From contig OX422194.1 of the NCBI GenBank assembly GCA_949130485.1, positions 1,900,641-1,964,640 on the forward strand: DNA of 64,000 bases, read 5' to 3'. Under the pieces are notes generated by a model. The model searched no databases. It saw only the letters and a list, made by a program, of their open reading frames with translations, and was not told the origin of the DNA. Position numbers and translations under genes: made by a program. The DNA is from Agelas oroides. Its lineage: Eukaryota; Porifera; Demospongiae; Agelasida; Agelasidae. Every line of letters starts with the position of its first letter. The first letter of the stretch is position 1. Of this stretch, positions 28,202 through 64,000 are shown one piece after another.

Positions 28202-31200
28202 GGTTACTCGTGAATTTGCGTGAATTCCATTGACTGCGCAGATTCGGCATTATACGGCGTTGAGACACCATGAGACACCATGAGCCTACATCCAAGACAC
28301 AATGAGATATATTAAGACAGCATGAGACACCATGAGACTCCATGAGACATCATAAGACACCATGAGACACCATGAGACATCATAAGACACCATGAGACAC
28401 CATGAGACACCATGAGACATCATAAGACACCATGAGACACCATGAGACACCATGAGACATCATAACACACCATGAGACACCATGAGACATATTAAGACCC
28501 GATGAAACATCATAAGACACCATGAGACAGTATGAGACTGCATGAGACATCATAAGACAAGACACCATGAGACTACAACAAATGACACCATGCGACACAA
28601 TGAAACATATCATGGGACATCATAAGACATCATGAGACACCAACAGACTCAATGAGACGTCATAAGACAACATGAGACACCATGACACTCCATGAAACAT
28701 CATAAGACACCATGAGACACCATGAGACATATTAAGACAGCATGAGACACCATTAGACTCCATGAGACATCATAAGACATCATGAGACACCATGAGACAC
28801 CATGAGACATCATAAGACACCATGATACACCATGAGACTCCATGAGACATCATAGGACACCATGAGACACCATGAGACTCCATGAGATACCATAAGACAC
28901 CATGAGACTATATCATAAGACACCATGAGACACCATGAGACATATTAAGACTCCTTGAGACATCAAAGACACTATGAGACCCAATAACACTCCATGAGAC
29001 ATCATAAAACACCATGAGACAACATGACACCACATCATCGGACACCATGAGACATATTAAGACTCCATCAGACATCATCAGACACCATGAGACACAATGA
29101 GACTCCATGAGACATCATAAGACACCATGAGATACCATGAGACTACATCATAAGACACCATGAGACATATTAAGCCACTAGGAGACATCATAAGACGCCA
29201 TGAGACACGATGACACTCCATGAGACATCATAAGACACCATGAGACACCATTAGACATAATAAGACTGCATGAGACATCATAAGACACCATGAGACACCA
29301 TGAGACTATATCATAAGACACCATGAGACACTATGAGACACATTGAGACTCCATGAGGCATCATAAGACACCATGAGACACCATGAGACTCCATGGGACA
29401 TAAGACACCATGAGACACCATGAGACTCCATGAGACATCATCAGACACCGTGAGACACCATGAGACTACATCCTAAGACACCATGAGACACCATGAGACT
29501 GTATGAGACATCATAAAACACCATGAGACACCATGAGACTCAATGAGATATCATAACACACCATGAGACACAATGAGACTCCCTGAGACATCATCAGACA
29601 TCATGAGACACCATGAGACTACATCACAAGACACCATGAGACACCATGAGACTGTATGAGATATCATAAAACACCATGAGACACCATGAGACTCCATGAG
29701 ACATCATGAGACACCATTAGACTCCATGAGAGATCATAAGACACCATGAGACTCCATGAGACGTCATAAGATACCATGAGACACAATGAGACTACATCAT
29801 AAGACACCATGAGACACCTTGAGACATAATAAGACAGCAAGAGACACCATGAGACCCCATGAGACATCATAAGACACCATGAGACACCATCAGACTACAT
29901 CATAAGACATCATCAGACACCTTGAGACTGCATGAGACATCATATACAAGACACCACGAGACACCATGAGACATATTAAGACTCGATCCATGAGACATCA
30001 TAAGACACCATGAGACACAAATAGACTCCATCACACATCATAAGATAACATCAGACACCATGAGACTACATCACAAGACACCATGAGAAACCATCACACA
30101 CATTAAGACTCATTGAGACATCATAAGACACCATGAGACAACATGAGACTCCATGAAACATCATAACCCACTATGAGACATGAAACTACACCATTACACA
30201 CCATGACACACCATCAGGTGTATTAAGACTCCATGAGATATCATAAAACACCATGAGACACCATGTGACTCCATGAGACATCATAAGACACCATGAGACA
30301 CCACGACACTCCATGAGACATCATAAGACACCATGAGACTACATCATAAGACACCATGAGACACCATGAGGCTGTATGAGACATAGTAAAACACCATGAG
30401 TCACCATGAGACTCCATGAGACATCATAAGACACCATGAGATACCATGAGACTCCATAAGACATCATAAGACAGCATGAGACACCATGAGACTCCATGAG
30501 ACACCCTAAGACACCATGAGACACAATGAGACTACATCACAAGACACCATGAGACACCATGAGACTGTATGAGACATAATAAAACGCTATGAGTCACCAT
30601 GAGACTCCATGAGACATAATGAGACATATTAAGACGCCATGAGACATCATAAGACACCATGAGACACAATGAGACTCCATGAGACATCATAAGACACCAT
30701 GAGACACCATGAGACTCCATGAGACACCATAAGTCACCATGAGACACAATGAGACTACATCACAAGACACCATGAGACACCATGAGACTGTATGAGACAT
30801 AATAAAACGCTATGAGTCACCATGAGACTCCATGAGACATAATGAGACATATTAAGACGCCATGAGACATCATAAGACACCATGAGACACAATGAGACTC
30901 CATGAGACATCATAAGACACCATGAGATACCATGAGACTACATCATAAGACACCATGCGACACCATGACACATATTAAGACACTAGGAGACACCATAAGA
31001 CGCCATGAGACACGATGACACTCCATGAGACATCATAAGACACCATGAGACTACATCATAAGACACCATGAGACAACATTAGACATAATAAGACTGCATG
31101 AGACATCATAAGACACCATGAGACACCATGAGACTATATCATCAGACACCATGAGACACCATGAGACATATTGAGACTCCATGAGACATCATAAGACACC

Positions 31201-32229
31201 ATGAGACACGATGAGACAACATCACCAGACACCATGAGACACCATGAGACTGTATGAGACATAATAAAACACCATGAGTCACCATGAGACTCCATGAGAC
31301 ATCATAAGACACCATGAGACACCATGAGACTCAATGAGACGTCATAAGACAACATGAGACACCATGACACTCCATGAGACATCATAAGACACCATGAGAC
31401 ACCATGAGCCTACATCTAAAACAACATGAGACATATTAAGACAGCATGAGACACCATGAGACTCCATGAGACATCATAAGATGCCATGAGACATCATGAG
31501 ACACCATGAGACATCATAAGATACCATGATACACCATAAGACTCCATGAGACATCATAAGACACCATCAGACACCAGGAGACTACATCATAAGACATCAT
31601 CAGACACCTTGAGACTGCATGAGACATCATATATAAGACACCACGAGACACCATGAGACATATTAAGACTCGATCCGTGAGACATCATAAGACACCATGA
31701 GACACAAATAGACTCCATCACACATCATCAGATAACATGATACACCATGACACTACATCACAAGACACCATGAGAAACCATGACACACATTAAGACTCAT
31801 TGAGACATCATAAGACACCATGAGACAACATGAGACTCCATAAAACACCATAACCCACCATGAGACATGAGACTACACCATTAGACAACATGACACACCA
31901 TCAGGTGTATTAAGACACCATGAGATATCATAAGACACCATGAGACACCGTGACACTCCATGAGGCATCATAAGACACCATGAGACACCACATGAGGCAC
32001 CATGAGATTCCATGAGACATCATAAGACACCATGAGACTCGATGAGACCACATCATAAGACACCATGAGAAACCATGAAACTACATCATAAGACATCATT
32101 AGACATAACAAGACTGCATGAGACATCATAAGACACCATGAGACACCATGTGACTACATGAGACATCATAAGACACCATGAGACACATAATAAGACACAA
32201 TGAGACACCATTAGACATAATAAGATTGC

Positions 32230-34150
32230 ATGAGACATCATAAGACACCATCAGACTACATCATAAGACACCATCACACACCTGAGACATATTAAGACTC
32301 CATGAGACACCACAAGACATCATGAGACACCATGAGACATCATAAGGCACCATGAGACACCATGAGACTACATCCTAAGACACCATGAGATACCATTAGA
32401 CATAATAAGACTGCATTGTATGTGACATCAGGAGACACCATGTGACTCCATCAGACATCATAAGATACCATGAGACTACATCATAAGACACCATGAGACA
32501 CCATGAGACTGTATGAGACATAATAAAACACCATGAGGCACCATGAGACTCCATGGGACACCATAAGACATCATGAGACACCATGAGACTCAATGAGATG
32601 TCATAAGACAACATGAGACACCATGACACTTCATGAGACATCATAAGACACCATGAGACACCATGAGACATATTAAGACAGCATGAGACACCATGAGACT
32701 CCATGAGACATCATAAGACGCCATGAGACACCATGAGACACCATGAGACATCATAAGACACCATGATACACCATAAGACTCCATGAGACATCATAAGACA
32801 CCATGAGACACCAGGAGACTACATCACAAGACATCATAAGACACCTTGAGACTGCATGAGACATCATATATAAGACACCACGAGACACCATGAGACATAT
32901 TAAGACTCGATCCGTGAGACATCATAACACACCATGAGACACAAATAGACCCCATCACACATCATAAGATAACATGAGACACCATGAGACTACATCACAA
33001 GACACCATGAGAAACCATGACACACATTAAGACTCATTGAGACATCATAAGACACCATGAGACACCATGAGGCACCATGAGATTCCATGAGACATCATAA
33101 GACACCATGAGACTCGATGAGACCACATCATAAGACACCATGAGAAACCATGAAACTACATCATAAGACATCATTAGACATAACAAGACTGCATGAGACA
33201 TCATAAGACACCATGAGACACATAATAAGACACAATGAGACACCATTAGACATAATAAGATTGCATGAGACATCATAAGACACCATCAGACTACATCATA
33301 AGACACCATCACACACCTGAGACATATTAAGACTCCATGAGACACCACAAGACATCATGAGACACCATGAGACATCATAAGGCACCATGAGACACCATGA
33401 GACTACATCCTAAGACACCATGAGATACCATTAGACATAATAAGACTGCATTGTATGTGACATCAGGAGACACCATGTGACTCCATGAGACATCATAAGA
33501 TACCATGAGACTACATCATAAGACACCATGAGACACCATGAGACTGTATGAGACATAATAAAACACCATGAGGCACCATGAGACTCCATGGGACACCATA
33601 AGACATCATGAGACACCATGAGACTCAATGAGACGTCATAAGACAACATGAGACACCATGACACTTCATGAGACATCATAAGACACCATGAGACACCATG
33701 AGACATATTAAGACAGCATGAGACACCATGAGACTCCATGAGACATCATAAGACGCCATGAGACACCATGAGACACCATGAGACATCATAAGACACCATG
33801 ATACACCATAAGACTCCATGAGACATCATAAGACACCATGAGACACCAGGAGACTACATCACAAGACATCATAAGACACCTTGAGACTGCATGAGACATC
33901 ATATATAAGACACCACGAGACACCATGAGACATATTAAGACTCGATCCGTGAGACATCATAACACACCATGAGACACAAATAGACCCCATCACACATCAT
34001 AAGATAACATGAGACACCATGAGACTACATCACAAGACACCATGAGAAACCATGACACACATTAAGACTCATTGAGACATCATAAGACACCATGAGACAA
34101 CATGAGACTCCATGAAACACCATAACCCACCATGAGACATGAGACTACAC
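32230..34150. repeat. Tandem 1035-bp duplication inside satellite A
   Basis: The segment from about 32230 recurs 1035 bp downstream with very few differences; for example the string ending CTGCATTGTATGTGACATC appears at both places, as do TAAGACTCGATCCGTGAGAC and its flanks. Just upstream, the similarity continues at an offset of 1075 because the second copy lacks a 40-bp block. Confidence 0.8.
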
Positions 34151-37100
34151 CATTAGACACCATGACACACCATCAGGTGTATTAAGACACCATGAGACAC
34201 CATGAGATTCCATGAGACATCATAAGACACCAAGAGACTCGATGAGACCACATCATAAGACACCATGAGAAACCATAACACACATTAAGACTCATTGAGA
34301 CATCATCAGACTCCATGAGACAGCATAAGACGCCATGAGACACCATGAGAATACATGAGTCAACAAAAGACACCATGAGACACCATGAAACTACATCATA
34401 AGACATCATTAGACATAATAAGACTGCTGAAACATCATAAGACACCATGAGACACCATGAGACTACATGAGACATTATAAGACACCATGAGACACATAAG
34501 ACACAATGAGACACCATTAGACATAATAAGATTGCATGAGACATCATAAGACACCATCAGACACCTGAGACATATTAACACTCCATGAGACACCACAAGA
34601 CACCATGAGACACCATGCGACATCATAAGGCACCATGAGACACTATGAGACTACATCCTAAGACAACATGAGATACCATTAGACATAATAAGACTGCATT
34701 GTATGTGACATCATGAGACACCATGTGACTCCATGAGACATCATAAGACACCATGAGACTACATCATAAGAGACCATGAGACACCATGAGACTGTATGAA
34801 ACATAATAAAACACCATGAGTCACCATGAGACTCCAATAGACATCATAAGACACCATGAGACACCATGAGACATCATGAGACATCATAAGACACTTGAGA
34901 CACCATGAGACACCATGAGACATCATAAGACACTTGAGACACCATGAGACACCATGAGACACCATGAGACATCATGAGACACCATGAGACTCAATGAGAC
35001 ATAATAAGACAACATGAGACACCATGACACTGCATGAGACATCATAAGACACCATGAGACACCATGAGCCTAAATCCAAGACACCATGAGACATATTAAG
35101 ACAGCATGAGACACCATGAGACTCCATGAGACATCATAAGACACCATGAAACACCACGAGACTCCATGAGACATCATAAGACAACATGAGACACCATGAC
35201 ACTCCATGAGACATCATAAGACACCATGAGACACCATGAGCCTACATCCAAGACACCATGAGACATATTAAGACAGCATGAGACAACATGAGACTCCATG
35301 AGACATCATAAGACACCATGAAACACCATGAGCCTACATCCAAGACACCATGAGACATATTAAGACAGCATGAGACACCATGAGACTCCATGAGACATCA
35401 TAAGACAACATGAGACACCATGACACTCCATGAGACATCATAAGACACCATGAGACACCATCAGCCTACATCCAAGACACCATGAGACATATTAAGACAG
35501 AATGAGACACCATGAGACATCATAAGAAACCATGAAACACCACGAGACACCATGAGACATCATAAGACACCATGATACACCATGAGACTCCATGAGACAT
35601 CATAGGACACCATGAGACACCATGAGACACCATAAGACACCATGAGACACCATCAGACTCCATTAGACATAAGAAACCATGAGGCGCCATGAAACATCAT
35701 AAGACAGCATGAGACACCATGAGACTCCATGAGATATCATAAGACACCATGAGACTACATCATAAAACACCAAGAGACACCATGAGACATATTAAAACTC
35801 CTAGAGACATCAAAGACAATATGAGACAACATAACACTCCATGAGACATCATAAGACACCATGAGACAACATGACACCACATCATCGGACACCATGAGAC
35901 ATATTAAGACTCCATGAAACATCATAAGACACCATGAGACACAATGAGACTCCATGAGACATCATAAGACATCATAAGACACCATGAGACTACATCATAA
36001 GACACCATGAGACACCATTAGACATAATAAGACTGCATGAGACATCATAAGACACCATGAGACACCACTGGACTCCATGAGACATCATAAGACACCATGA
36101 GACACCATGAGACTATATCATAAGACACCATGAGACACCATGAGACATATTAAGACTCCATGAGACATCATAAGACACCATGAGACACCATGAGACTCCA
36201 TGCGACATTATAAGACACCATGAGACACCATGAGACTATATCATAAGACACCATGAGACTATATCATAAGACACCATGAGACATATTCAGACTCCATGAG
36301 ACATCATAAGACACCATGAGACACCATGAGACATATTCAGACTCCATGAGACATCATAAGACACCATGAGACACCATGAGACATATTCAGACTCCATGAG
36401 ACATCATAAGACACCATGAGACACCATGAGACTCCATGCGACATTATAAGACACCATGAGACACCATGAGACTACATCATAAGACACCTTGAGACACCAT
36501 GTGACTCTATGAGACATCATAAGACATCATAAGACATCATGAGACTCAATGAAACGTCATAAGACAACATGAGACACTATGACACTCCATGAGACATCAT
36601 AAGACACCATGAGACACCAGGAGCCTACATCCAAGACACCATGATACATCATGAGACTCCATGAGACATTATAAGTCACCATAAGACACCATGAGCCTAC
36701 ATCCAAGATACCATGAGACATATTAAGACAGCATGAGACACCATGAGACTCCATGAGACATCATAAGACACCATGAAACACCACGAGACACCATGAGACA
36801 TCATAAGACACCATGATACACCATGAGACTCCATGAGACATCCTAGGACACCATGAGACACCATGAGACTACATGAGACACCATAAGACACCATGAGACA
36901 CCATCAGACTCCATTAGACATAAGAAACCATTAGGCGCCATGAAACATCATAAGACAGCATGAGACACCATGAGACTCCATGAGATATCATAAGACACCA
37001 TGACACTGCATCATAAGACACCAAGAGACACTATGAGACATATTAAAACTCCTTGACACATCAAAGACAATATGAGACACCATAACACTCCATGAGACAT

Positions 37101-39567
37101 CATAAGACACCATGAGACAACATGACACCACATCATCGGACACCATGAGACATATTAAGACTCCATGAAACATCATAAGACACCATCAGACACAATGAGA
37201 CTCCATGAGACATCATAAGACATCCTAAGACACCATGAGACTACATCATAAGACACCATGAGACACCATTAGACATAATAAGACTGCATGAGACATCATA
37301 AGACACCATGGGACACCACTGCACTCCATGAAACATCATAAGACACCATGAGACACCATGAGACTATATCATAAGACACCATGAGACACCATGAGACATA
37401 TTAAGACACCATGAGACACCATGAGATTCCATGCGACATTATAAGACACCATGAGACACCATGAGACTATATCATAAGACACCATGAGACACCATGAGAC
37501 ATATTCAGACTCCATGAGACATCATAAGACACCATGAGACACCATGAGACTCCATGCGACATTATAAGACACCATGAGACACCATGAGACCACATCATAA
37601 GACACCTTGAGACACCATGAGACTCCATGAGACATCATAAGACATCATAAGACATCATGAGACTCAATGAAACGTCATAAGACAACATGAGAAACTATGA
37701 CACTCCATGAGACATCATAAGACACCATGAGACACCATGAGCCTACATCTAAGACACCGTGACACATCATGAGACTCCATGAGACATAAGTCACCATAAG
37801 ACACCATGAGACTACATCATAAGACACTATGGGACACTATTACACATATTAAGACTTCATGAGACATCATAACACACCATGAGACACAATGAGACTCCAT
37901 GAGACATTATCAGACACCATGAGACACCATGAGACTACATCCTAAGACACCATGAGACACCACGAGACACCATGAGACACCATGAGACATCATAAGACAC
38001 CTCAGACACCATGAGACACCATGAGACACCATGAGACATCATGAGACACCATGAGACTCCATGAGACATAATAAGACACCATGAGACTACATCATAAGAC
38101 ACAATGAGACACCATGAGACAGTATGAGACTGCATGAGACATCATAAGACAAGACACCATGAGACTACATCAAATGACACCATGCGACACAATGAAACAT
38201 ATCATGGGACATCATAAGACACCATGAAACACCACGAGACACCATGAGACATAATAAGACACCATGATACACCATGAGACTCCATGAGACATCATAGGAC
38301 ACCATGAGACACCATGAGACTACATGAGACACGATAAGACACCATGAGACACCATCAGACTCCATTAGACATAAGAAACCATGAGGCACCATGAAACATC
38401 ATAAGACAGCATGAGACACCATGAGACTCCATGAGACATCATAAGACACCATGAGACAACATGACACCACATCATCGGACACCATGAGACATATTAAGAC
38501 TCCATGAAACATCATAAGACACTATGAGACACAATGAGACTCCATGAGACATCATAAGACAGCCTAAGACACCATGAGACTACATCCTAAGACACCATGA
38601 GACACCATTAGACATAATAAGACTGCATGAGACACCATAAGACACCATGAGACACCATTGGACTCCATGCGACATTATAAGACACCATGAGACACCATGA
38701 GACTATATCATAAGACACCATGAGACTATATCATAAGACACCATGAGACACCATGAGACATATTCAGACTCCATGAGACATCATAAGACACCATGAGACA
38801 CCATGAGACACCATGAGACTACATCATAAGACACCATGAGACTCCATGAGACATCATAAGACATCATAAGACATCATGAGACTCAATGAAACGTCATAAG
38901 ACAACATGAGACACCATGACACTCCATGAGACATCATAAGACATCATGAGACACCATGAGCCTACATCCAAGACACCATGACACATCATGAGACTCCATG
39001 AGACATAAGTCGCCATAAGACACCATGAGACTACATCATAAGACACTATGGGACACTATTACACATATTAAGACTCCATGAGACATCATAACACACCATG
39101 AGACACAATGAGACTCCATGAGACATCATCAGACACCATGAGACACCATGAGACTACATCCTAAGACACCATGAGATACCATTAGACTGTATGAGACATC
39201 ATAAAACACCATGAGACACCATGAGACACCATGAGACATCATAAGACACCTGAGACACCATGAGACACCATGAGACATCATGAGACACCATGAGACTCCA
39301 TAGGACATAATAAGACACCATGAGACTACATCATAAGACACAATGAGACACCATGAGACATATTAAGACCCGATGAAACATCATAAGACACCATGAGACA
39401 GTATGAGACTGCATGAGACATCATAAGACAAGACACCATGAGACTACATCAAATGACACCATGCGACACAATGAAACATATCATGGGACATTATAAGACA
39501 TCATGAGACACCATAAGACTCAATGAGACGTCATAAGACAACATGAGACACCATGAGACACCATGAG

Positions 39568-40221
39568 CAGTGATAAAGTTTTGCCAACCCCCTCCTACTG
39601 TCCTCATCAATAAGCCTATACCGCAGCGCCGCAGTATGACGTCATTTTTGAAACTACTGCACTATACTACTCGCCTGAGATACGGACTTCGGTCCAGGGA
39701 GATCTATACCAAGGAACCGATTACGTCCCCGGAGATACTGTCAGAGCCCCCCCAGACGCAAGATGACAGCATCAGCAGCATACAAGAGACACCGAACAGC
39801 CAATTTAGGCTGGCACTCTTGGTAACCCCGTGCATGCCCCATATAAGTAGTATAGAATCTGTTAACCATAGCCCTTCCCCCTTACTGTTTAGCCCCACAC
39901 CCACCGCAAGCCCAGTCCATGCCCCTACCCCCTGATTCCACCCAGGACCAGCCACCTCCCCCTCCACTTAGCCCCACTAACAGTCTAACCTCTTCCCATA
40001 GCACTAGCCCCCAGCATGAAGAATCCCTATCTGGATCCATCGAACTATTCAGCCCCACCCCCAGCATAATCCAGAACAAGTGGCCATCACCCCCCCCTCT
40101 CCCTCAACGATCCCCACGCATTAGGAGAAGACACAATTTACACAACTATGCGAGCCTTGCCTCAACAAATGGGAGCTACGATGTGCGTAGCAGTGTTGGC
40201 GCTCCCCCACCCGATACCCCA
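39568..40221. other. Unique island inside satellite A
   Basis: About 650 bp of complex sequence bounded on both sides by satellite decamers. It is GC-richer than the satellite. It holds two overlapping plus-strand ORFs (next entries). No terminal inverted repeats, target duplication or poly-A tail could be made out, so its route of entry is unknown. Confidence 0.85.
39636..39935 (+). CDS. ORF of unknown function in the satellite island (5' part)
   Basis: The frame is open from 39570; the first ATG is at 39636, giving 99 codons. It begins with basic MTSFLKLLHYTTRLRYGLRS, continues with acidic/Ser-rich SPEILSEPPQTQDDSISSIQ, and ends proline-rich (SPTPTASPVHAPTP). The composition is that of a linker region in a longer protein rather than a folded domain. 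I do not recognise it. Confidence 0.3.
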   Translation: MTSFLKLLHYTTRLRYGLRSREIYTKEPITSPEILSEPPQTQDDSISSIQETPNSQFRLALLVTPCMPHISSIESVNHSPSPLLFSPTPTASPVHAPTP

Positions 40222-40230
40222 ACTCCATGA
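39919..40230 (+). CDS. Proline/serine-rich ORF in the satellite island (3' part)
   Basis: 103 codons in the +1 frame relative to the previous ORF, overlapping it by 17 bp. It is proline-rich (QDQPPPPPLSPTNSLTSS), then basic (QRSPRIRRRHNLHNYAS). The stop codon falls within the first satellite decamer after the island. The similar style of both ORFs suggests one coding region interrupted by a frameshift, or two exons of a captured gene. The family is unknown. Confidence 0.3.
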   Translation: MPLPPDSTQDQPPPPPLSPTNSLTSSHSTSPQHEESLSGSIELFSPTPSIIQNKWPSPPPLPQRSPRIRRRHNLHNYASLASTNGSYDVRSSVGAPPPDTPTP

Positions 40231-46200: not shown

Positions 46201-48030
46201 CTCCATGAGATATCATGACACTCCGTGAGACACCATAAGACACCATGAGACTCCATGAGACATCATAAAGCACCGTGATACTACATCATAAGACACCATG
46301 AGACATATTAAGACTCCATGAGACACCATAAGACGCCATGAGACACCATGAGAATACATGAGTCAACATAAGACACCATGAGACGCAATGAAACTACATC
46401 ATAAGACATCATTAGACATCATGAGACATCATAAGACACATTGAGACACCATCAGACACCATGAGAGATCATAAGACTCCAAGAGATACCATGGGACTAC
46501 ATCATAAGACACCATGAGACACCAGAGACATCATAAGACACCATGAGACACCATGAGACTACAGGAGACATCATAAGACACCATGAGACACCATCAGACT
46601 CCATTAGACATAAGAAACCATGAGGCGCAATGAGACTCCACTAGACATCATAAGACACCATGAAACATCATAAGACACCAAGAGACACCATGAGACATAT
46701 TAAAACTCCTTGAGACATCAAAGACACTATGAGACACCATAACACTCCATGAGACATCATAAGACACCATGAGACAACATGACACCACATCATCGGACAC
46801 CATGAGACATATTAAGACTCCATTAGACATCATAAGACACCATGAGACACAATGAGACTCAATGAGACATCATAAGACATCATAAGACACCATGAAACTA
46901 CATCATAAGACACCATGAGACACCATTAGACATAATAAGACTGCATGAGACATCATAAGACACCATGAGACAACTTTGGACTCCATGAGACATCATAAGA
47001 CACCATGAGACACCATGAGACACCTTGAGACTATATCATAAGACACCATGAGACACCATGAGACATATTCAGACTCCATGAGACATCATAAGACACCATG
47101 AGACACCATGAGACTCCATGCGACATTATAAGACACCATGAGACTATATCATAAGACACCTTGAGACACCATGAGACTCCATGAGACATCATAAGACATC
47201 ATAAGACATCATGAGACTCAATGAAACGTCATAAGACAACATGAGACACCATGACACTCCATGAGACATCATAAGACACCATGAGACACCATGAGCCTAC
47301 ATCCAAGACACCATGACACATCATGAGACTCCATGAGACATTATAAGTCACCATAAGACACCATGAGACTACATCATAAGACACTATGGGACACTATTAC
47401 ACATATTAAGACTCCATGAGACATCATAACACACCATGAGACACAATGAGACTCCATGAGACATCATCAGACACCATGAGACACCACGAGACTACATCCT
47501 AAGACCCCATGAGATACCATTAGACTGCATGAGACACCATGAAACATCATAAGACACCTGAGACACCATGACACACCATGAGACATCATGAGACACCATG
47601 AGACTCCATGAGACATAATAAGACACCATGAGACTACATCATAAGACACCATGAGACACCATGAGACTACATCATAAGACACCATGAGACACCATGAGAC
47701 ACCATGAGAGTACATCATAAGACACCACGAGACACCATGACACATATTAAGACACCATGAGACACCATGAGAAGTATTAAGACCCCATGAGAGATCATTA
47801 GACACCATGACTATTAAGACTCCATGATACATCATAAGACACCATGAAACTCCGTGAGAAGACACCATGAAACTCCGTGAGAAGACACCATCAGACACCA
47901 TTAGACTACATCATAAGACACAATGAGACACCATCAGACATATTAAGACTCCATGAGATATCATGAGACTCCATGAGACATCACAAGACACCATCAGACA
48001 CCATGAGACTGTATGAGACATAATAACCAA

Positions 48031-51000: not shown

Positions 51001-52240
51001 ACTTCATAAGACACCATGAGACACCACGAGACTACATGAGACATCATAAGACACCATGAGACACATCATAATCCACAATCAGACACCATTAGACATAATA
51101 AGATTGCATGAGACATCATAACACACCATGAGACACGATCAAACACCATGAGACACCTGAGACATATTAAGACTCCATGAGACACCACAAGACACCATGA
51201 GACACCTTGAGACTACATCATAAGACACCATGAGACTACATCATAAGACACCATGAGACTACATCATAAGACACCATGAGACACCATGTGACTCCATGAG
51301 ACATCATAAGACACCTGAGACACCGTGAGACTACATCATAAGACACCATGAGACACCATGAGACTGTATGAGACATAATAAAACACCATGAGTCACCATG
51401 AGACTCGATGAGACATCATAATACACCATGAGATACCATGAGACTACATGAGACATAAGACACCATGAGACACGATGAGACTCCACTAGACATAAGACAC
51501 CATGAGGCGAAATGAGACTCCATTAGACATAATAAGACAGCATGAGACACCATGAGACACCATGAGACTACATCCTAAGACACCATGAGACACCACGAGA
51601 CTGTATGAGACATCATAAAACACCATGAGACACCATGAGCCTCCATGAGACATCATAAGACACCATGAGACACCATGAGACATCATCAGACAACATGAGA
51701 CACCATGAGACTGTGTGAGACATAATAAAACGCTATGAGTCACCATGAGACTCCATGAGACATCATGAGACACCATTAGTTTCCATGAGAGATCATAAGA
51801 CACCATGAGACACCATGAGACTCCATGAGACGTCATAAGATACCATGAGACACAACGAGACTACATCATAAGACACCATGAGACACGTTGAGACATACTA
51901 AGACAGCAAGAGAAGCAATGAGACCCCATGAGGCATCATAAGACACCATGAGACACCATGAGACTTGATGAGACATCATAAGACACCATGAGACACCAGG
52001 AGACTACATCATAAGACATCATCAGACACCTTGAGACGGCATGAGACATCATATATAAGACACCACGAGACACCATGAGACATATTAAGACACGATCCAT
52101 GAGACATCATAAGACACAATCAGACACAAAGAGACTCCATCACACATCATAAGATAACATGAGACACCATGAGACTACATCACAAGACACCATGAGACAC
52201 CATGAGACTGTATGAGACATAATAAAACGCTATGAGTCAC
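48031..52240. repeat. ~2.1-kb higher-order repeat in satellite A
   Basis: CGCTATGAGTCAC followed by the same unit order starts at 48031, 50182 and 52229, spacings of 2151 and 2047 bp. Within the first two copies the order of variant units agrees over most of the length (for example the strings at 48460-48681 and 50611-50832). The third copy diverges soon after its start. Confidence 0.75.
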
Positions 52241-55200
52241 TATGAGACATCATGAGACACCATTAGACTCCATGAGATCTAAGACACCATGAGACACAAT
52301 GAGACTACATGAGACATCATAAGACACCATGAGACACATAATAAGACACAATGAGACACCATTAGACATAATAAGTTTGCATAAGACATCATAAGACACA
52401 ATCAGACTTCATCATAAGACACCATCAGACACCTGAGACATATTAAGACTCCATGAGACACCACAAGACACCATGAGACACCATGAGACATCATAAGGCA
52501 CCATGAGACACCATGAGACTACATCCTAAGACACCATGAGATACCATTAGACATAATAAGACTGCATTGTATGTGACATCATGAGACACCATGTGACTCG
52601 ATGAGACATCATAAGAAACCATGAGACTACATCATAAGACACAATGAGACACCATGAGACTGTATGAGACATAATAAAACACCATGAGTTACCATGAGAC
52701 TCCAAGAGAGATCATAAGACACCATGACATACCATGAGACTCCATGAGACATCATAAGACACCATGAGACACCATGAGACACCATGTGACATCATCAGAT
52801 ATCTGAGACACAATGAGACACCATGAGATATCATGATACACCATGAGACTCCATGAGATATAATAAGACATAATAAGACACCATGAGACACAACGAGACA
52901 TCATAAGACACCTGAAACACCATGAGACATCATGAGACACCATGACACTCCATGAGACATAATAAGACACCATGAGACACCATGAGCCTACATCCAAGAC
53001 ACCATGAGACATATTAAGACAGCATGAGACACCATAACACTCCATGAGACATCATAAGACACCATTAGACACAATGAGACTCCATGAGACATCATAAGAC
53101 ATCATAAGACACCATGAGACTACATCATAAGACACCATGAGACACCATTAGACATAATAAGACTGCATGAGACATCATAAGACACCATGAGACACCATTG
53201 GATTCCATGAGACATCATAAGACACCATGAGACACCATGAGACTATATCATAAGACACCATGAGACACCATGAGACATATTCAGACTCCATGAGACATCA
53301 TAAGACACCATGAGACACCATGAGACTCCATGCGACATTATAAGACACCATGAGACACCATGAGACTACATCATAAGACACCTTGAGACACCATGAGACT
53401 CCATGAGACATCATAAGACATCATAAGACACCATGAGACTCAATGAAACGTCATAAGACAACATGAGACACCATGACACTCCATGAGACATCATAAGACA
53501 CCATGAGACACCATGAGCCTACATCCAAGACACCATGACACATCATGAGACTCCATGAGACATTATAAGTCACCATAAGACACCATAAGACTACATCATA
53601 AGACACTATGGGACACTATTACACATATTATGACTCCATGAGACATCATAACACACCATGAGACACAATGAGACTCCATGAGACATCATCACACACCATG
53701 AGACACCATGAGACTACATCCTAAGACACCATGAGATACCATTAGACTGTATGACACATCATAAAACACCATGAGACACCATGAGACACCATGAGACATC
53801 ATAAGACACCTGAGACACCATGAGACATCATGAGACACCATGAGACTCCATGAGACATAATAAGACACCATGAGACTACATCATAAGACACCATGAGACA
53901 CCATGAGCCTACATCCAAGACACCATGACACATCATGAGACTCCATGAGACATTATAAGTCACCATAAGACACCATGAGACTACATCATAAGACACTATG
54001 GGACACTATTACACATATTAAGACTCCATGAGACATCATAACACACCATGAGACACAATGAGACTCCATGAGACATCATCAGACACTATGAGACACCATG
54101 AGACTACATCCTAAGACACCATGAGATACCATTAGACTGTATGAGACATCATAAAACACCATGAGACACCATGAGACACCTTGAGACACCACGAGACATC
54201 TTAAGACACCTGAGACACCATGAGACATCATGAGACATCATGAGACATCATGAGACACCATGAGACTACATCATAAGACACCACGAGACACTATGACACA
54301 TATTAAGACACCATGAGACACCATGAGAAGTATTAAGACTCCATGAGAGATCATTAGACACCATGACATATTAAGACTCCATGATACATCATAAGACACC
54401 ATGAAACTCCGTGAGAAGACACCATCAGACACCATGAGACTACATCATAAGACACCATGAGACACCATGAGACATATTAAGACTCCATGAGATATCATGA
54501 TACTCCATGAGACACCATAAGACACCATGAGGCACCATGAGACATCATAAAGCACCATGATACTACACCATAAGACACCATGAGACACCATGAGACATAT
54601 TAAGACTCCATGAGACACCATAAGACGCCATGAGACACCATGAGAATACATGAGTCAACATAAGACACCATGAGACACCATGAAACTACACCATAAGACA
54701 TCATAAGACTGCATGAGACATCATAACATACATTGAGACATCATAAGACACGATGAGACATGATCAGACACCATCAGACTACATCATAAGACACCATGAG
54801 ACACCTGAGACATATTAAGACTCCATGAGACACCACAAGACACCATGAGACACCATGAGACTACATCATAAGACACCATGAGACACCATTAGACATAATA
54901 AGACTGCATTGTATGGAACAACATAAAACACCTTGAGACACCATGTGACTCCATGAGACATAATAAGACATAATGAGACACCGCGAGACTCCATGAGACA
55001 CCATAAGACACCATGAGACACCATGAGACTACATCATGACACACAATGAGACACCATGAGACTGTATGACACATAATAAACACCATGAGTAACCATGAGA
55101 CTCGATGAGACATCATAATACACCATGAGATACCATGAGACTCCATGAGACACCATAAGACACCATGAGACACCATGAGACTCCATGAGACATCATAAGA

Positions 55201-57035
55201 CACCATGAGACATCATGAGACATCATAATACACCTGAGACACCATGAGACACAATGAGACATCATGAGACACCATGAGACTCCATGAGACATCATAAGAC
55301 ACCATGAGACATCATGAGACATCATAAGACACCTGAGACACCATCAGACACCATGAGACATCATGAGACACCATGAGACTCCATGAGACATAATAAGACA
55401 CCATGAGACTACATCATAAGACACCATTAGACACCATGAGACTACATCATAAGACACCATGAGACACCATGAGACTACATCATAAGACACCACGAGACAC
55501 CATGACACATATTAAGACACCATGAGACACCATGAGAAGTATTAAGTATTAAGATTCCATGAGAGATCATTAGACACCATGACATATTAAGACTCCATGA
55601 TACATGATAAGACACCATGAGACTCCGTGAGACATCATAAGACACCATCGGACACCATGAGACTACATCATAAGACACCATGAGACATATTAAGACTCCA
55701 TGAGACACCATAAGGCGCCATGAGACACCATGAGAATACATGAGTCAACATAAGACACCATGAGACGCAATGAAACTACATCATAAGACATCATTAGACA
55801 TCATGAGACATCATAAGACACATTCAGACACCATCAGACACCATGAGAGATCATAAGACACCAAGAGATACGATGGGACTACATCATAAGACACCATGAG
55901 ACACCAGAGACATCATAAGACACCATGAGACACCATGAGACTACAGGAGACATCATAAGACACCATGAGGCACCATCAGACTCCATTCGACATAAGAAAC
56001 CATGAGGCGCAATGAGACTCCATTAGACATCATAAGACACCATGAAACATCATAAGACAGCATGAGACACCATGAGACTCCATGAGATATCATAAGACAC
56101 CATGAGACTACATCATAAGACACCAAGAGACACCATGAGACATATCAAAACTCCTTGAGACATCAAAGACACTATGAGACAACATAACACTCCATTAGAC
56201 ATCATAAGACACCATGAGAAAACATGACACCACATCATCGGACAGCATCAGACATATTAAGACTCCATTAGACATCATAAGACACCATGAGACACAATGA
56301 GACTCCATGAGACATCATAAGACATCATAAGACACCATCAAACTACATCATAAGACACCATGAAACTACATCATAAGACACCATGAGACACCATTAGACA
56401 TAATAAGACTGCATGAGACACCATAAGACACCATGAGACACCATTGGACTCCATGAGACATCATAAGACACCATGAGACTACATTCTACCAAGGCTGTAC
56501 TTGACTCTACATGACTCTCCTTCATTCCACCATTGCTCTTCTTGACTCTACTTGACTGTACTACACTCTACCATGGCTGTACTTGGTTCCACTTACCTCT
56601 ACTACACTCTACCATGGTCTACTACATTCTACCAAGGCTCTACTTGACTCTACACGACTATACTACTCTCTACCATGACTGTACTTGGCTGTACCTGTCT
56701 GTACTACAATCTACTATGGCTCTTCTACATTCTTCCAAGGCTCTACTTGACTCTACACAACTCTACTACTCTCTACCATAACTCTACTTGGATGTACCTG
56801 TCTGTACTACACTCTACCATGCCTCTACTACATTCTACCAAGGCTCTACTTGACTCTACATGACTCTACTTCATTCCACCATTGCTCTTCTTGACTCTAC
56901 TTGACTGTACTACACTCTACCATGACTGTACTTGGTTCTACTTAGCTCTACTACACTCTACCATGGTGTACAACATTCTACCAAGGCTCTCCTTGACTCT
57001 ACATGACTCTACTACATTCTACCATGGCTCAAGTA

Positions 57036-57137
57036 GAGTCAACTAGAACCGTGAAAGAATGTAGTAGAGTCATGTAGAGTCAAGTTGAGTCATGGTAGAA
57101 TGTAGTGGATCCATGGTAGTGTGTAGTACAGACAAGT
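57036..57137 (-). repeat. Inverted segment of satellite B
   Basis: Here the satellite reads in reverse orientation. Its reverse complement matches about 57948-58058, including the rare blocks ACTACACACTACCATGGATC, CATGACTCAACTTGACTC and TTCTTTCACGGTTCTAGTTG. It is flanked on both sides by normally oriented units. Confidence 0.85.
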
Positions 57138-59658
57138 AGAGCTCTACTTGACTCTACTATTATACAATGACATTCTACCATGGCTCTACTTGGCTATACC
57201 TGTCTCTACTACACTCTGCCATGGCTCTACTTCATTCTACCAAGGCTCTACTTGGCTGTACATGACTCTACTACATTCTACAAAGGCCCTACTTGACTCT
57301 ACTTCACTCTATACTACACTCCACCATGGCTCTACGTGGCTCTACTTGACTCTACTATACTCTACCATGGTCTACTACATTCTACCAAGGCTCTACTTGA
57401 CTCTACATTACTCTACTACATTCTACCATGGCTCTACTTGACTCTACTTGACTGTACTAAACTCTACTATGGCTCTACTACATTCTACCAAGGCTCTACT
57501 TGACTCTACATGACTCTACTACTCTCTACCATGGCTCTACTTGGATGTACCTGTCTGTACTACACTCTACCATGGTCTACTACATTCTACCAAGGCTCTC
57601 CTTGACTCTACATGACTCTACTACATTCTACCATGGCTCTACTTGACTCTACTTGACTATACTAAACTCTCATATGGCTCTACTGCATTCTACCAAGACT
57701 CTACTTGACTCTACACGACTCTATTACTCTCTACCATAACTCTACTTGGCTGTACCTGTCTGTACTACACCCTACCATGGCTCTACTACATTCTACCAAG
57801 GCTCTACTTGACTCTACATGACTCTAGTACATTCTACCATAGCTCTACTTGACAATACTTGACTGTACTACACTCTACTATGGCTCTACTACATTCTACC
57901 AGGGCTCTACTTGACTCTACACGACTCTACTACTATACCATGAATCTACTTGGCTCTACCTGTCTGTACTACACACTACCATGGATCCACTACATTCTAC
58001 CATGACTCAACTTGACTCTACATGACTCTACTACATTCTTTCACGGTTCTAGTTGACTCTACTTGTCTCTACTACACCCTACCATAGCTCTACTACATTC
58101 CACGAAGGCTCTACTTGACTCTACACGACTCTACTACTCTCTACCATGACTCTACTTGGATGTACTTGTCTGTACTATACTCCACCATGCCTCTACTACA
58201 TTCTACCAAGGCTCTACTTGACTCTACATGACTCTACTTCATTCCACCATTGCTCTTCTTGACTCTACTTGACTGGACTTCACTCTACCATGGCTGTACT
58301 TGGTTCCACTTAGCTCTACTACACTCTACCATGGTCTACTTCATTCTACTAAGGCTCTACTTGACTCTACATGACTCTACTACATTCTACCTTGGCTCTA
58401 CTTGGCTGTACCTGGGTCTACTACACTCTGCCATGGCTCTACTACATTCTACCAAGGCTCTACTTGACTGTACATTACTCTACTACATTCTACAAAGGCC
58501 CTACTTGACTCTACTTCATTCTACTACACTCCACCATGGATCTACATGGCTCTACTTGACTCTACTATACTCTACCATGGTCTACTCCATTCAACCAAGG
58601 TGCTACTTGACTCTACATCACACTACTACATTCTACCATGGCTCTACTTGACTCTACTTGACTGTACTAAACTCTACTATGGCTCTGCTACATTCTATCA
58701 AAGCTCTACTTGACTCTACATGACTCTACTACTCTCTACCATGTCTCTACTTGGATGTACCTGTCTGTTCTACACTCTAGCATGACTCTACTACCTTCTA
58801 CCATGGCTCTACTTGACTCTACTTGACTGTACTACACTCTACTATGGTTCTACTACATTCTACCAAGGCTCTACTTGACTCTACACGACTCTACTACTCT
58901 CTACCATGACTCTACTTGGATGTACCTGCCTGTACTACACTCTACCATGGCTCTACTACATTCTACCAAGGCTCTTCTTGACTCTACATGACGCTACTTC
59001 ATTCCACCATTGCTCTTCTTGACTCTACTTCACTGTACTATACTCTACCATGCCTGTACTTGGTTCTACTTATAGCTCTACTACACTCTACCATGGTCTA
59101 CTACATTCTACCAAGGCTCTCCTTGACTCAACATGACTCTACTACATTCTACCATGGCTCTACTTGGCTGTACCTGTCTATACTACACTCTTCCATGGCT
59201 CTACTACATTCTACCAAGGCTCTATAGCTACTTGGCTGTACATGACTCTACTACATTCTACAAAGGCCCTACTTGACTCTACTTCACTCTACTACACTCC
59301 ACCATGGCTCTTCGTGGCTCTACTTGACTCTACTATACTCTACCATGGTCTACTACATTCTACCAAGGCTCTACTTGACTCTACATTAATTACTCTACTA
59401 CATTCTACCATGGCTCTACTTGACTCTACTTGACTGTACTCAATTCTACTATGGCTCTACTACATTCTACCAAGGCTCTACTTGACTCTACACAACTCTA
59501 CTACTCTCTACCATAACTCTACTTGGATGTACCTGTCTGTACTACACTCTACCATGGCTCTACTACATTCTACCAAGGCTCTACTTGACTCTACATGACT
59601 CTACTTCATTCCACCATTGCTCTTCTTGACTCTACTTGACTGTACTACACTCTACCAT

Positions 59659-60212
59659 CAGTGGCGTAGGAACCGTAGCGGCCGTAGCGGCTTTGGCCGC
59701 TACACTTTTTAGGCCGCAAATTAATGTTCATAACCTGCTATAAGTTACTAATAGCTAAAGCTAGCCTCGTTCGCAGGGAACGAGCCCAACCTCAAGCAGC
59801 CTCTTCGTTGGACCAGTCTCATAATTATGCAGTTGCATGCGTACAATCCCCCTTAAAGTACACTATAAAGCAATCAAAACCTTGGCTGTGAGATGCCTTG
59901 GTACGAGGCTAATGCACATTTTCACAGAGACTACTATATACAAGCGACGAAAGCTGGGCGGTCTCCCGGGAACGACGACGAAGTCAGGAAGTACAATCTT
60001 ACAGTTTTCCTAAATATTTTACTGGACGGTTGGGAAGGTCTGAAAGCTTATAGCTACCTTTGAAAAAAGGCTTTATTTTGCAGTCTAAAGGTGCACACTT
60101 TGAAAAAATTCGCCGCCGCGCTACGCGCGTCGAAATTATTTCACATTTTTCTGCCGCGCTTCGCGCCGTACAGCATGGCCTCTACACTCCAAATTTGCTT
60201 CCTACGCCTATG
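59659..60212. mobile_element. 554-bp hAT-like non-autonomous element, copy 1
   Basis: It starts CAGTGGCGTAGGAA and ends TTCCTACGCCTATG, an inverted match with two differences. ACCAT flanks both sides (59654-59658 and 60213-60217), and removing the element leaves a continuous satellite unit (CTCTACCATGACTGTAC). Internally it carries GTAGCGGCCGTAGCGGC, and a CCTCGTTCGCAGGGAACG block related to the other MITE family. There is no ORF. Confidence 0.8.
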
Positions 60213-61575
60213 ACCATGACTGTACTTGGTTCTACTTAGCTCTACTACACTCTACCATGGTCTACAACATTCTACCAAGGCTCTCCTTGACTCTACATGA
60301 CTCTACTACATTCTACCCTGGCTGTACTTGGCTCTACTTGACTATACTAAACTCTACTATGGCTCTGCTGCATTCTACCAAGACTCTACTTGACTCTACA
60401 CGACTCTATTACTCTCTACCATGACTCTACTTGGCTGTACCTGTCTGTACTACACACTACCATGGCTCTACTACATTCTACCAAGGCTCTACTTAACTCT
60501 ACATGACACTACTACATTCTATCATTGCTCTACTTCACTATACTTGACTGTACTACACTCTACTATGGCTCTACTACATTCTACCAGGGCTCTACTTGAC
60601 TCTACACGACTCTTCTACTATACCATGACTCTACTTGGCTCTACCTGTCTGTACTGCACACTACCATGGTTCCACCACATTCTACCATGACTCAACTTGA
60701 CTCTACACGACTCTACTACATTCTTTCACGGTTCTAGTTGACTCTACTTGACTCTACTACCCCCTATCATGGCTCTACTACATTCCACGAAGGCTCTACT
60801 TGACCCTACACGACTCTACTACTCTCTACCATGACTCTACTTGGATGTACCTGTCTGTACTACACTCCACCATGCCTCTACTACATTCTACCAAGGCTCT
60901 ACTTGACTCTACATGACTCTACTTCATTCCACCATTGCTCTTCTTGACTCTACTTGACTGGACTACACTCTACCATGGCTGTACTTGGTTCCACTTAGCT
61001 CTACTACACTCTACCACGGTCTACTTCATTCTACCAATGCTCAACTTGACTCTACATGACTCTACTACATTCTACCTTGGCTCTACTTGGCTGTACCTGG
61101 CTCTACTACACTCTGCCATGGCTCTACTACATTCTACCAAGGCTCTACTTGACTGTACATTACTCTACTACATTCTACAAAGGCCCTACTTGACTCTACT
61201 TCACACTACTACACTCCACCATGGCTCTTCGTGGCTCTACTTGACTCTACTATACTCTACCATGGTCTACTACATTCTACCAAGGCTCTACTTGACTCTA
61301 CATTAATTACTCTACTACATTCTACCATGGCTCTACTTGACTCTACTTGACTGTACTCAATTCTACTATGGCTCTACTACATTCTACCAAGGCTCTACTT
61401 GACTCTACACAACTCTACTACTCTCTACCATAACTCTACTTGGATGTACCTGTCTGTACTACACTCTACCATGGCTCTACTACATTCTACCAAGGCTCTA
61501 CTTGACTCTACATGACTCTACTTCATTCCACCATTGCTCTTCTTGACTCTACTTGACTGTACTACACTCTACCAT

Positions 61576-62129
61576 CAGTGGCGTAGGAACCGTAGCGGCC
61601 GTAGCGGCTTTGGCCGCTACACTTTTTAGGCCGCAAATTAATGTTCATAACCTGCTATAAGTTACTAATAGCTAAAGCTAGCCTCGTTCGCAGGGAACGA
61701 GCCCAACCTCAAGCAGCCTCTTCGTTGGACCAGTCTCATAATTATGCAGTTGCATGCGTACAATCCCCCTTAAAGTACACTATAAAGCAATCAAAACCTT
61801 GGCTGTGAGATGCCTTGGTACGAGGCTAATGCACATTTTCACAGAGACTACTATATACAAGCGACGAAAGCTGGGCGGTCTCCCGGGAACGACGACGAAG
61901 TCAGGAAGTACAATCTTACAGTTTTCCTAAATATTTTACTGGACGGTTGGGAAGGTCTGAAAGCTTATAGCTACCTTTGAAAAAAGGCTTTATTTTGCAG
62001 TCTAAAGGTGCACACTTTGAAAAAATTCGCCGCCGCGCTACGCGCGTCGAAATTATTTCACATTTTTCTGCCGCGCTTCGCGCCGTACAGCATGGCCTCT
62101 ACACTCCAAATTTGCTTCCTACGCCTATG
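61576..62129. mobile_element. 554-bp hAT-like non-autonomous element, copy 2 (by segmental duplication)
   Basis: Same sequence, same ACCAT flanks (61571-61575 and 62130-62134) and same satellite context as copy 1, exactly 1917 bp away. It therefore arose by duplication of the satellite segment, not by a second transposition. Confidence 0.85.
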
Positions 62130-64000
62130 ACCATGACTGTACTTGGTTCTACTTAGCTCTACTACACTCTACCATGGTCTACAACATTCTACCAAGGCTC
62201 TCCTTGACTCTACATGACTCTACTACATTCTACCCTGGCTGTACTTGGCTCTACTTGACTATACTAAACTCTACTATGGCTCTGCTGCATTCTACCAAGA
62301 CTCTACTTGACTCTACACGACTCTATTACTCTCTACCATGACTCTACTTGGCTGTACCTGTCTGTACTACACACTACCATGGCTCTACTACATTCTACCA
62401 AGGCTCTACTTAACTCTACATGACACTACTACATTCTATCATTGCTCTACTTCACTATACTTGACTGTACTACACTCTACTATGGCTCTACTACATTCTA
62501 CCAGGGCTCTACTTGACTCTACACGACTCTTCTACTATACCATGACTCTACTTGGCTCTACCTGTCTGTACTGCACACTACCATGGTTCCACCACATTCT
62601 ACCATGACTCAACTTGACTCTACACGACTCTACTACATTCTTTCACGGTTCTAGTTGACTCTACTTGACTCTACTACCCCCTATCATGGCTCTACTACAT
62701 TCCACGAAGGCTCTACTTGACCCTACACGACTCTACTACTCTCTACCATGACTCTACTTGGATGTACCTGTCTGTACTACACTCCACCATGCCTCTACTA
62801 CATTCTACCAAGGCTCTACTTGACTCTACATGACTCTACTTCATTCCACCATTGCTCTTCTTGACTCTACTTGACTGGACTACACTCTACCATGGCTGTA
62901 CTTGGTTCCACTTAGCTCTACTACACTCTACCACGGTCTACTTCATTCTACCAATGCTCAACTTGACTCTACATGACTCTACTACATTCTACCTTGGCTC
63001 TACTTGGCTGTACCTGGCTCTACTACACTCTGCCATGGCTCTACTACATTCTACCAAGGCTCTACTTGACTGTACATTACTCTACTACATTCTACAAAGG
63101 CCCTACTTGACTCTACTTCACACTACTACACTCCACCATGGATCTACGTGGCTCTACTTGACTCTACTATAATCTACCATGGTCTACTACATTCTACAAA
63201 GGCCCTACTTCACTCTACTTCACACTACTACACTCCACCATGGATCTACGTGGCTCTACTTGACTCTACTATAATCTACCATGGTCTACTACATTCTATC
63301 AAGGCTCTCCTTGACTCTACATGACTCTACTACATTCTACCTTGGCTCTACTTGGCTGTACCTGGCTCTACTACACTCTACCATGACTCTATGCCATTCT
63401 ACCATGGCTCTACTTGACTCTACTTGACTGTACTACACTCTACTATGGATCTACTACATTCTACCAAGGCTCTACTTGACTCTACACGACTCTACTACTC
63501 TCTACCATGACTCTACTTGGATGCACCTGTCTGTACTAAACTCTACCATGGCTCTACTACATTCTACCTAGGCTCTACTTGACTCTACACGACTGTACTA
63601 CTCTCTACCATGACTCTACTTGGATGTACCTGTCTGTACTACACTCTACCATGGCTCTACTACATTCTACCTAGGCTCTACTTGACTCTACATGACGCTA
63701 CTTCATTCCACCATTGATCTTCTTGACTCTACTTGACTGTACTACACTCTACCATGCCTGTACTTGGTTCTACTTATAGCTCTACTACACTCTCCCATGG
63801 TCTACTACATTCTACCAATGCTCTACTTGACTCTACATGACTCTACTACATTCTACCATGGCTCTACCTGTCTCTACTACACTCTGCCATGGCTCTACTA
63901 CATTCTACCAAGGCTCTACTTGGCTGTACTTGACTCTACTACATTCTACAAAGGCTCTACTTGACTCTACTTCACTCTACTACACTCCACCATGGCTCTA

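Follow-up and report, generated by a model that had tools for sequence, protein, structure and literature searches.

The centromeres of Drosophila melanogaster carry satellites of 5- and 10-mers, among them Prodsat (AATAACATAG), AATAG and AATAT, adjoined by the 11/12-bp dodecasatellite, and rotational phasing has been proposed as the advantage of the 10-mer (PMC5844345). Human satellites II and III are described as pericentromeric repeats of 10-80 bp with 5- and 10-bp units (PMC8122249). For rice CentO (155 bp), a centromeric satellite of nucleosome length, rotational phasing has been reported. Here we describe two adjacent satellites, A and B, in a 64,000-nucleotide stretch of the sponge Agelas oroides (assembly GCA_949130485.1, contig OX422194.1, positions 1900641-1964640; hereafter the window), both of which are built of units averaging close to 10.3 bp and are candidate centromeric or pericentromeric satellites, whose centromeric role and nucleosome phasing are putative.

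A and B resemble the Drosophila centromeric satellites in forming tandem arrays whose units span roughly half a turn or one turn of the helix, with several families side by side. The sequences differ, and here the 10-mers of B are interspersed with 11-mers in a fixed order and those of A with 13-mers at irregular places. The weak-weak (WW) dinucleotide pattern is faint; a 10-bp periodicity of WW steps, led by AA, beyond what the period alone produces was not found in A or B. Human satellites II and III likewise have short units near centromeres, the candidate location here. They form large blocks on several chromosomes, as is seen here, and to our knowledge their units are unrelated to those of A and B, from which they are further set apart by the fixed 10/11 grammar and the sponge host. 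With CentO the proposed benefit of rotational phasing is shared, but here there is no monomer of nucleosome length and the WW pattern is weak. The 5-/10-mer centromeres of Drosophila, for which rotational phasing has likewise been argued, are the clear precedent and the closest known system, and the statement of the initial annotation that satellites typically measure 150-400 bp was partly wrong. Notable here are the ordered mixture of 10- and 11-mers, the occurrence of several unrelated families and the sponge host.

Unit lengths and periodicity

Array A occupies 28262-56478 of the window with one interruption (~39569-40228), and array B follows from 56479 to the window end with two (~59659-60212 and ~61576-62129), both caused by one 554-bp element. 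Unit lengths were obtained by wrap-around segmentation of 26 arrays in all, inside and outside the window; the large contigs are called C1-C23, the window lying on C12. As the initial annotation had claimed, both satellites are strings of 10-bp units with occasional longer ones, and their means are nearly the same. Pooled over the window, the 2680 units of A average 10.280 bp (standard error, se, 0.021) and comprise 2329 10-mers and 157 13-mers (~6%), and the three window parts of B (B1, B2 and B3, with 308, 129 and 178 units) average 10.295, 10.295 and 10.315 bp, 434 of the 615 units being 10-mers and 167 being 11-mers. The first part of A contains the 10-bp units AGACACCATG, AGACATCATA and AGACTCCATG and 13-bp units such as AGACTACATCATA. 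The 10-mers of B between 56479 and 59658 include CTCTACTACA and CTCTACTTGA, the 11-mers TTCTACCAAGG and CTCTACCATGG, with higher-order periods of 41 and 103 bp.

For B, similar values are found elsewhere in the genome. All segmented B together (5164 units on eight contigs) gives a mean of 10.307 bp (se 0.009), with 10.25-10.34 bp per unit in an AT-rich subfamily (43-45% GC; samples on C3, C9, C12, C14, C15, C16, C19 and C23) and 10.28-10.35 in a GC-rich one (53-55% GC, on C12). Outside the window A averages 10.35 bp on C8 (se 0.05), 10.31 in an island on C12, 10.44 on C15 (se 0.10) and 10.50 on C2 (se 0.09).

The autocorrelation proposed by the initial annotation as a check of the period, run over lags of 1-400 with the inserted elements kept in, gave a divided answer. 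The top peak of A lies at exactly 10 (identity 0.675 against 0.291 expected) and its multiples, and slides to 63, 73 and 113 as the 13-mers add up; instead of a single smooth period of 10.3 bp, A thus has a 10.0-bp lattice broken by +3 jumps. The peaks of B lie at 41, 103, 10, 31 and 62, and nothing comparable was detected by autocorrelation in the 26-kb flank (maximum 0.287, at lag 39). The AT-rich form of B follows a grammar of 10-10-10-11 and 10-11 runs, in which 4+4+2 units make 103 bp per ten units, while GC-rich B, with higher-order periods of 41, 72 and 113 bp, reaches the same mean by another grammar. A monomer of nucleosome length (150-180 bp) was not seen over the same lags, those of A being strongest at 10-80 bp and those of B being the ones named above. 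Both are short-unit satellites in the sense that units of 5 bp, or close to one turn of the helix, are repeated over many kilobases: A extends along 28 kb of the window, and B, with a mean of 10.31 on its eight contigs, is present in samples spanning 340 kb of C12. On C20 (C20:2550001-2550400) B takes a local form (ATTCTACCATGGCTCTACTTC) whose period is simply 21 bp, equal to 10.5 bp per unit.

Helical phase

The helical repeat inside nucleosomes is given as 10.2 bp (PMC8349767). The explanation that we favour, though tentatively, is that a candidate (peri)centromeric satellite is rotationally phased on its nucleosomes: as the unit is close to the nucleosomal pitch, the core (CTCTAC in B, AGAC..AT in A) would meet the histones on nearly one face in each nucleosome, so that any tandem run would be rotationally phased whatever its letters. 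The arrays would spread and homogenise through in-register unequal exchange, and the 10/11 order of B together with the indel shortage of its GC-rich form (see below) would suggest that phase is kept, either by selection or by a need for exchange register. Almost as probable is a neutral origin, in which decamer seeds were multiplied by slippage and in-register unequal exchange, the 11- and 13-mers are hitchhiking indel variants and the value of about 10.3 bp has no function.

Phase coherence was expressed as the resultant length of the unit starts for eight arrays at five pitches, with the shuffled order of unit lengths as control. Over 100 units at 10.28 bp it amounted to 0.81 in window B1 (shuffled 0.47), 0.86 in window B3 (0.53), 0.64 in the C15 array (0.51), and 0.97 and 0.61 in the GC-rich samples L035 (0.60) and L038 (0.49); over 300 units it was 0.74 in the sole B array long enough (~3 kb). 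A, by contrast to its shuffled order, gains little (A1 0.31 vs 0.27, A2 0.40 vs 0.26) and falls out of phase after tens of units. At other pitches B drops over 100 units to 0.08-0.41 (10.17 bp), 0.12-0.28 (10.4 bp) and 0.05-0.18 (10.5 bp), and phase over 1 kb thus requires a working pitch within a few hundredths of 10.28 bp. The idea that each core keeps to one side of the helix over kilobases therefore fails for A at all five pitches and holds for B only near 10.28 bp. Free DNA has a pitch of about 10.5 bp, and the mean of B sits between this value and the nucleosomal 10.2 bp. Over 14 units, or about one nucleosome, B reaches 0.89-0.95 for a pitch of 10.17 bp and 0.92-0.98 for one of 10.28 bp (shuffled order 0.83-0.91), and A 0.73-0.77 at 10.17-10.28 bp. 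Within a nucleosome the phasing of B thus roughly matches that of a plain decamer at 10.17 bp and surpasses it at 10.28 bp, and that of A offers no improvement.

The order of the unit lengths speaks for nucleosomal phasing: among the 22 testable arrays there were 13 (ten of the 18 from B and three of the four from A) in which no more than 14/500 shuffles gave a residual about the mean line as small as the observed one, without multiple-test correction. For the neutral origin, higher-order duplication by itself makes 11-mers regular, A loses phase as a 10.0 lattice with +3 jumps and has means that differ among chromosomes, and over 1 kb the phase of B is kept at its own mean only and not at the nucleosomal 10.2 bp. 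Less readily explained by neutrality is that A and B arrive at nearly the same mean through different correction units (13-mers and 11-mers), and B through two grammars. A nucleosomal pitch of 10.2 bp, with the drift that B shows over 1 kb when 10.17 bp is assumed, makes nucleosomal phasing slightly less likely and the neutral origin slightly more so.

Curvature and dinucleotide phasing

Intrinsically curved satellite DNA, the selection for curvature suggested by the initial annotation, was compared with permuted decamers in which the columns were shuffled inside each unit (300 times), so that period and composition are kept; nine of the 26 segmented arrays were used, A being cut to its first 6 kb, with Bolshoy-type wedge angles and Olson-type angles. 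Predicted curvature in A and AT-rich B is about 1.6-2.5 times that of unphased Markov sequence. However, it lay inside the 5-95% range of the permuted decamers with both angle models in all nine arrays, with permutations at least as curved numbering 137/300 for A1 and 140/300 for window B (Bolshoy-type) and 98/300 and 187/300 (Olson-type); over the arrays, decamers of the same period were as curved in 98-150/300 cases for A and 113-191/300 for AT-rich B, and GC-rich B was below the permuted median (214-242/300 at least as curved). Curvature is thus no greater than in shuffled decamers, the outcome that the initial annotation had itself named as refuting its proposal, and an intrinsically curved satellite is highly improbable.

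The contrast between WW and strong-strong (SS) dinucleotides gave a similar picture. In A and B it exceeds that of Markov sequence (0.079-0.143 vs 0.046-0.052), the period alone raising the phased signal, but it was matched or surpassed by 245/300 permutations for A1 and 275/300 for window B, and its amplitude was under the permuted-decamer median in eight of the nine arrays and just over it (0.115 vs 0.109) in a sample of a third satellite, C (L068). Such low contrast indicates that the letters within the unit are not tuned for rotational positioning. TA steps in B are better phased than in most permutations (24-47/300 as strong), which is a weak hint. Curvature and WW-SS phasing were consequently rejected as explanations against permuted decamers; any helical contribution comes from the spacing and not from tuned letters. 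Unremarkable curvature and WW-SS contrast are what the neutral origin would lead one to expect.

Core conservation and indels

Comparison of close segment pairs puts the rate of change in the core at 0.41-0.68 of that expected on the basis of the tail columns, which base class does not predict. For changes to column-rare bases the core/tail ratio is 0.51-0.71 in 10 of 12 settings, the remaining two (0.82 and 0.99) being GC-rich B at 82-92% identity. This slower change of the core even in close pairs tells against the neutral origin and bears on a further explanation, namely that a protein specific for the core sequence binds it at every turn and so lines one face of the DNA, with selection on core and spacing, as Prod may do on the Drosophila satellite to which it binds, AATAACATAG (PMC5844345). 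In its favour the core CTCTAC of AT-rich B has a per-column identity of 0.87-0.96 against 0.51-0.78 in the tail, and rare-base changes of the core occur at 0.52-0.71 (AT-rich B) and 0.51-0.62 (A) of the tail rate. However, the contrast is weak in GC-rich B (0.76-0.98 in the core and 0.40-0.95 in the tail, with a rate ratio of 0.66-0.99), the lack of a core common to A, B and C would call for several proteins, and exchange between neighbouring units, which keeps the shared core and alters the tails without selection, does predict slower core change because all units have the same core. A protein reading the core is accordingly rated as unlikely.

Small indels, counted per substitution event outside short runs, amount to 0.022 [0.011-0.035] in GC-rich B, 0.069 [0.054-0.085] in AT-rich B and 0.106 [0.084-0.127] in A; two dispersed repeats from this genome, taken as controls, gave 0.158 [0.107-0.208] and 0.078 [0.044-0.119]. 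The filters were passed by 76/119, 127/199 and 137/180 satellite windows, and the controls consist of 51 and 50 comparisons from 17 and 18 copies, which are not independent. A clear shortage of phase-breaking indels is confined to GC-rich B, where it tells against the neutral origin. A depletion in all satellites, suggested by first counts that were about two- to fourfold lower in B, was rejected, since masking and event counts leave GC-rich B only.

Relation between the families

That A and B share no sequence, as first annotated, was borne out: the best local alignment of their consensus sequences scores 8.0, which 507 of 1000 column-permuted versions of A equalled or bettered. For the same reason A and B were rejected as diverged relatives, a relationship suggested by ACCATG in both and by the seam, at which GAGACTACAT is followed by TCTACC. 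The figure of 507/1000 applies to A with AT-rich B; permutations were as good in 633/1000 cases for A with GC-rich B, 103/1000 for A with C and 519/1000 for B with C. Satellite C joins GTCCCGTCTT and GTCCCAATGCT to a 10+11 = 21-bp period; it occurs close to B on C12 (4.48-4.52 Mb) and also on C5 and C10, with one place each on C8 and C17, and its two segmented samples have means of 10.63 (se 0.12) and 10.45 bp (se 0.07). The C samples L068 (C12:4480001-4481000) and L069 (C12:4520001-4521000) belong to the second block of C12. The GTCCCGT of C looks like the Drosophila dodecasatellite GGTCCCGTACT (PMC5844345), a likeness that may be due to chance.

Chromosomal distribution

The genome comprises 259.3 Mb in 141 contigs, of which C1-C23 (32.7 down to 6.8 Mb) make up nearly the whole; C12, with 9.43 Mb, resembles a complete chromosome. 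The window forms the left edge of a satellite block on C12 of 370-420 kb, as estimated from samples and not from continuous reading, in which A (1.929-1.957 Mb) is followed by AT-rich B from 1.957 to about 2.035 Mb, GC-rich B to 2.177 Mb, an island of A (2.177-2.184 Mb) and again AT-rich B to at least 2.301 Mb; at 2.35 and 2.40 Mb the samples contain ordinary sequence. A second block at 4.44-4.73 Mb contains AT-rich B in reverse, C and GC-rich B. Since the second stretch of A is an island inside B, the symmetrical arrangement in which A would flank B on both sides of a centromere was rejected.

In a genome-wide search for the unit vocabulary, a check that the initial annotation had proposed, B was detected on 21 of the 23 large contigs (C1-C5, C7-C21 and C23) by the matches listed, spot samples and grid probes. 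Among the matches listed, B on C2, C13 and C18 rests on one match each and on C1 and C7 on two or three close together, and it occurs at many places on most B-bearing contigs. One block of B per chromosome was rejected, as B was also found at 7.0 Mb of C10 (spot sample) and twice on C20 (grid probes). None was found in 40 grid probes on C6 and 20 on C22, where blocks smaller than the 260-340-kb grid could escape. From pattern density there are roughly 3 Mb of GC-rich B, 1 Mb of AT-rich B and 0.07 Mb of A. Of 100 samples placed irrespective of B three match it, one of 20 3-kb samples at round-number positions and two of 80 400-bp grid probes, the latter on three contigs chosen because B had been unseen there. 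Tandem Repeats Finder (TRF) detected 48 non-overlapping arrays in 100 kb of mostly ordinary sequence, none with a period of 10 or 11 outside the B sample L088; seven had periods of 19-23, six of them with just 2.0-2.4 copies. An exact 28-base pattern of GC-rich B had no match in a viral contig collection, nor an exact 27-base pattern of AT-rich B in a genome contig collection. Three of the 80 grid probes, on C6 (L109, 4.29 Mb), C22 (L145, 4.25 Mb) and C20 (L165, 4.25 Mb), have an internal 72-bp period with weaker lags of 31-42.

Array growth and features of the window

Copies of 300 bp at the 15 best lags of A are 97-100% identical and lie 223 to 11,717 bp apart, and in B a 1917-bp piece was recently duplicated in tandem (99% identity between 59222-61308 and 61139-63225). 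Because this piece of the array was duplicated in tandem, the two window copies of the 554-bp element are identical. Near-identical copies at the kilobase scale and tandem and inverted duplications (Table 1) indicate that the arrays grow and homogenise by exchange at many scales, and in-register unequal exchange at 10-41-103-bp and kilobase scales is shown by the near-identical kilobase-scale duplications. Such plainly active duplication also speaks for the neutral origin.

Table 1. Satellite arrays and inserted elements in the window.
Feature	Position	Strand	Basis
Satellite A, first part	28262-39568	+	TRF, autocorrelation, segmentation: 1099 units, mean 10.286 (se 0.032)
660-bp dispersed repeat inside satellite A	39569-40228		Copy comparison
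Satellite A, second part	40229-56478	+	Segmentation: 1581 units, mean 10.276 (se 0.027)
Satellite B, 44%-GC (AT-rich) subfamily	56479-59658	+	TRF, autocorrelation, segmentation
Inverted copy of satellite B 57953-58065	57030-57142	-	112/113 aligned positions identical
554-bp element, copy 1	59659-60212		Copy comparison; ends read in sequence
Satellite B, next part	60213-61575	+	TRF, segmentation
554-bp element, copy 2	61576-62129		Copy comparison; inside tandem duplication
Satellite B, last part	62130-64000	+	Runs beyond window; later C12 samples still B

The 660-bp repeat is possibly a solo long terminal repeat; its 40 best-scored full-length copies, the window copy among them, are 96-100% identical, and its two open reading frames (ORFs) are without Pfam match up to E 0.1. 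Four copies lie at a 4.3-kb spacing on C1 (C1:19812433-19826015), the spacing that a tandem retrotransposon sharing its terminal repeats would be expected to have. The 554-bp element, with ends CAGTGGCGTAGGAA and TTCCTACGCCTATG and the 5-bp ACCAT flanking both sides, is probably a non-autonomous DNA-transposon-like element, and its remaining scored copies are 82-99% identical. None of the main higher-order lags of B (31, 41, 62 and 103) is divisible by 3, which speaks against a coding function of the long ORFs inside the arrays. The stretch 25785-28262, to the left of array A, contains 203-bp tandem repeats (TRF) and similar sequence (GTGAATTTGCGTGAATT...CAGATTCGGCATTATACGGCG, compared by eye only), which stops where the array starts. 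Further left are a 43-bp minisatellite (18853-19588; 17 copies, 98%), which overlaps the start of a TRAF-type zinc-finger ORF, and a 39-bp minisatellite (11626-12683; 27 copies, 92% matches). Matches in the flank comprise a RING/TRAF-zinc-finger ORF, an ArsA/GET3-type ATPase exon and a zf-AD match.

Centromeric candidacy and significance

Rotational phasing of a candidate (peri)centromeric satellite thus draws on the order of unit lengths, which beats shuffling in 10 of the 18 B samples, and on the few small indels of GC-rich B. Several observations weigh against it. The B mean of 10.31 bp differs from the nucleosomal 10.2 bp, with the low coherence at 10.17 bp over 100 units (0.08-0.41) given above, and over 14 units a plain 10-mer attains 0.91 at 10.17 bp and 0.78 at 10.28 bp, above the 0.73-0.77 of A. 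Shuffled orders were often as regular in GC-rich L038 (254/500) and L039 (283/500), in AT-rich C15 (206/500), in window B3 (143/500) and B2 (67/500), and in C23 (76/500). The means of A vary among chromosomes (C2 10.50, C15 10.44, C8 10.35), one stretch of B, on C20, repeats simply every 21 bp, the WW-SS contrast of A and B is lower than that of most permuted decamers, and the indel rates of AT-rich B and A overlap those of the controls after masking of short runs. As to location, no B was seen in the grid probes on C6 and C22, and on C3, C10, C12, C14, C15 and C20 it occurs at two or more places separated by millions of bases, which is not expected for a simple monocentric centromere. Overall, the helical interpretation is partly supported.

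A more far-reaching proposal, which we regard as rather improbable, is a phase-locked heterochromatin code, in which several unrelated sequences would have been taken into the (peri)centromeric DNA of this early-branching animal for their shared near-pitch spacing, kept in the manner of a vernier by the 11-mers of B and the 13-mers of A. Each array would hold one face to the histones through the nucleosome, and the slow-changing core would mark one face of the helix. If this were true, the identity of such satellites would lie in their spacing and not in their sequence, which would help to explain how centromeric sequences turn over while centromeres persist.

Among the titles listed by a literature search none concerns sponge satellite or centromere DNA, which is a weak negative. 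In the long-read pipeline of one broad survey of centromere repeat candidates, monomers shorter than 50 bp were discarded, so that repeats like A and B would have escaped it, and its main text contains no match for 'sponge' or 'Amphimedon' (PMC4053949). If B is centromeric or pericentromeric, it would provide a candidate centromere sequence in a sponge, and the occurrence of several unrelated families with near-equal helical spacing in one genome makes selection on spacing instead of sequence directly testable.

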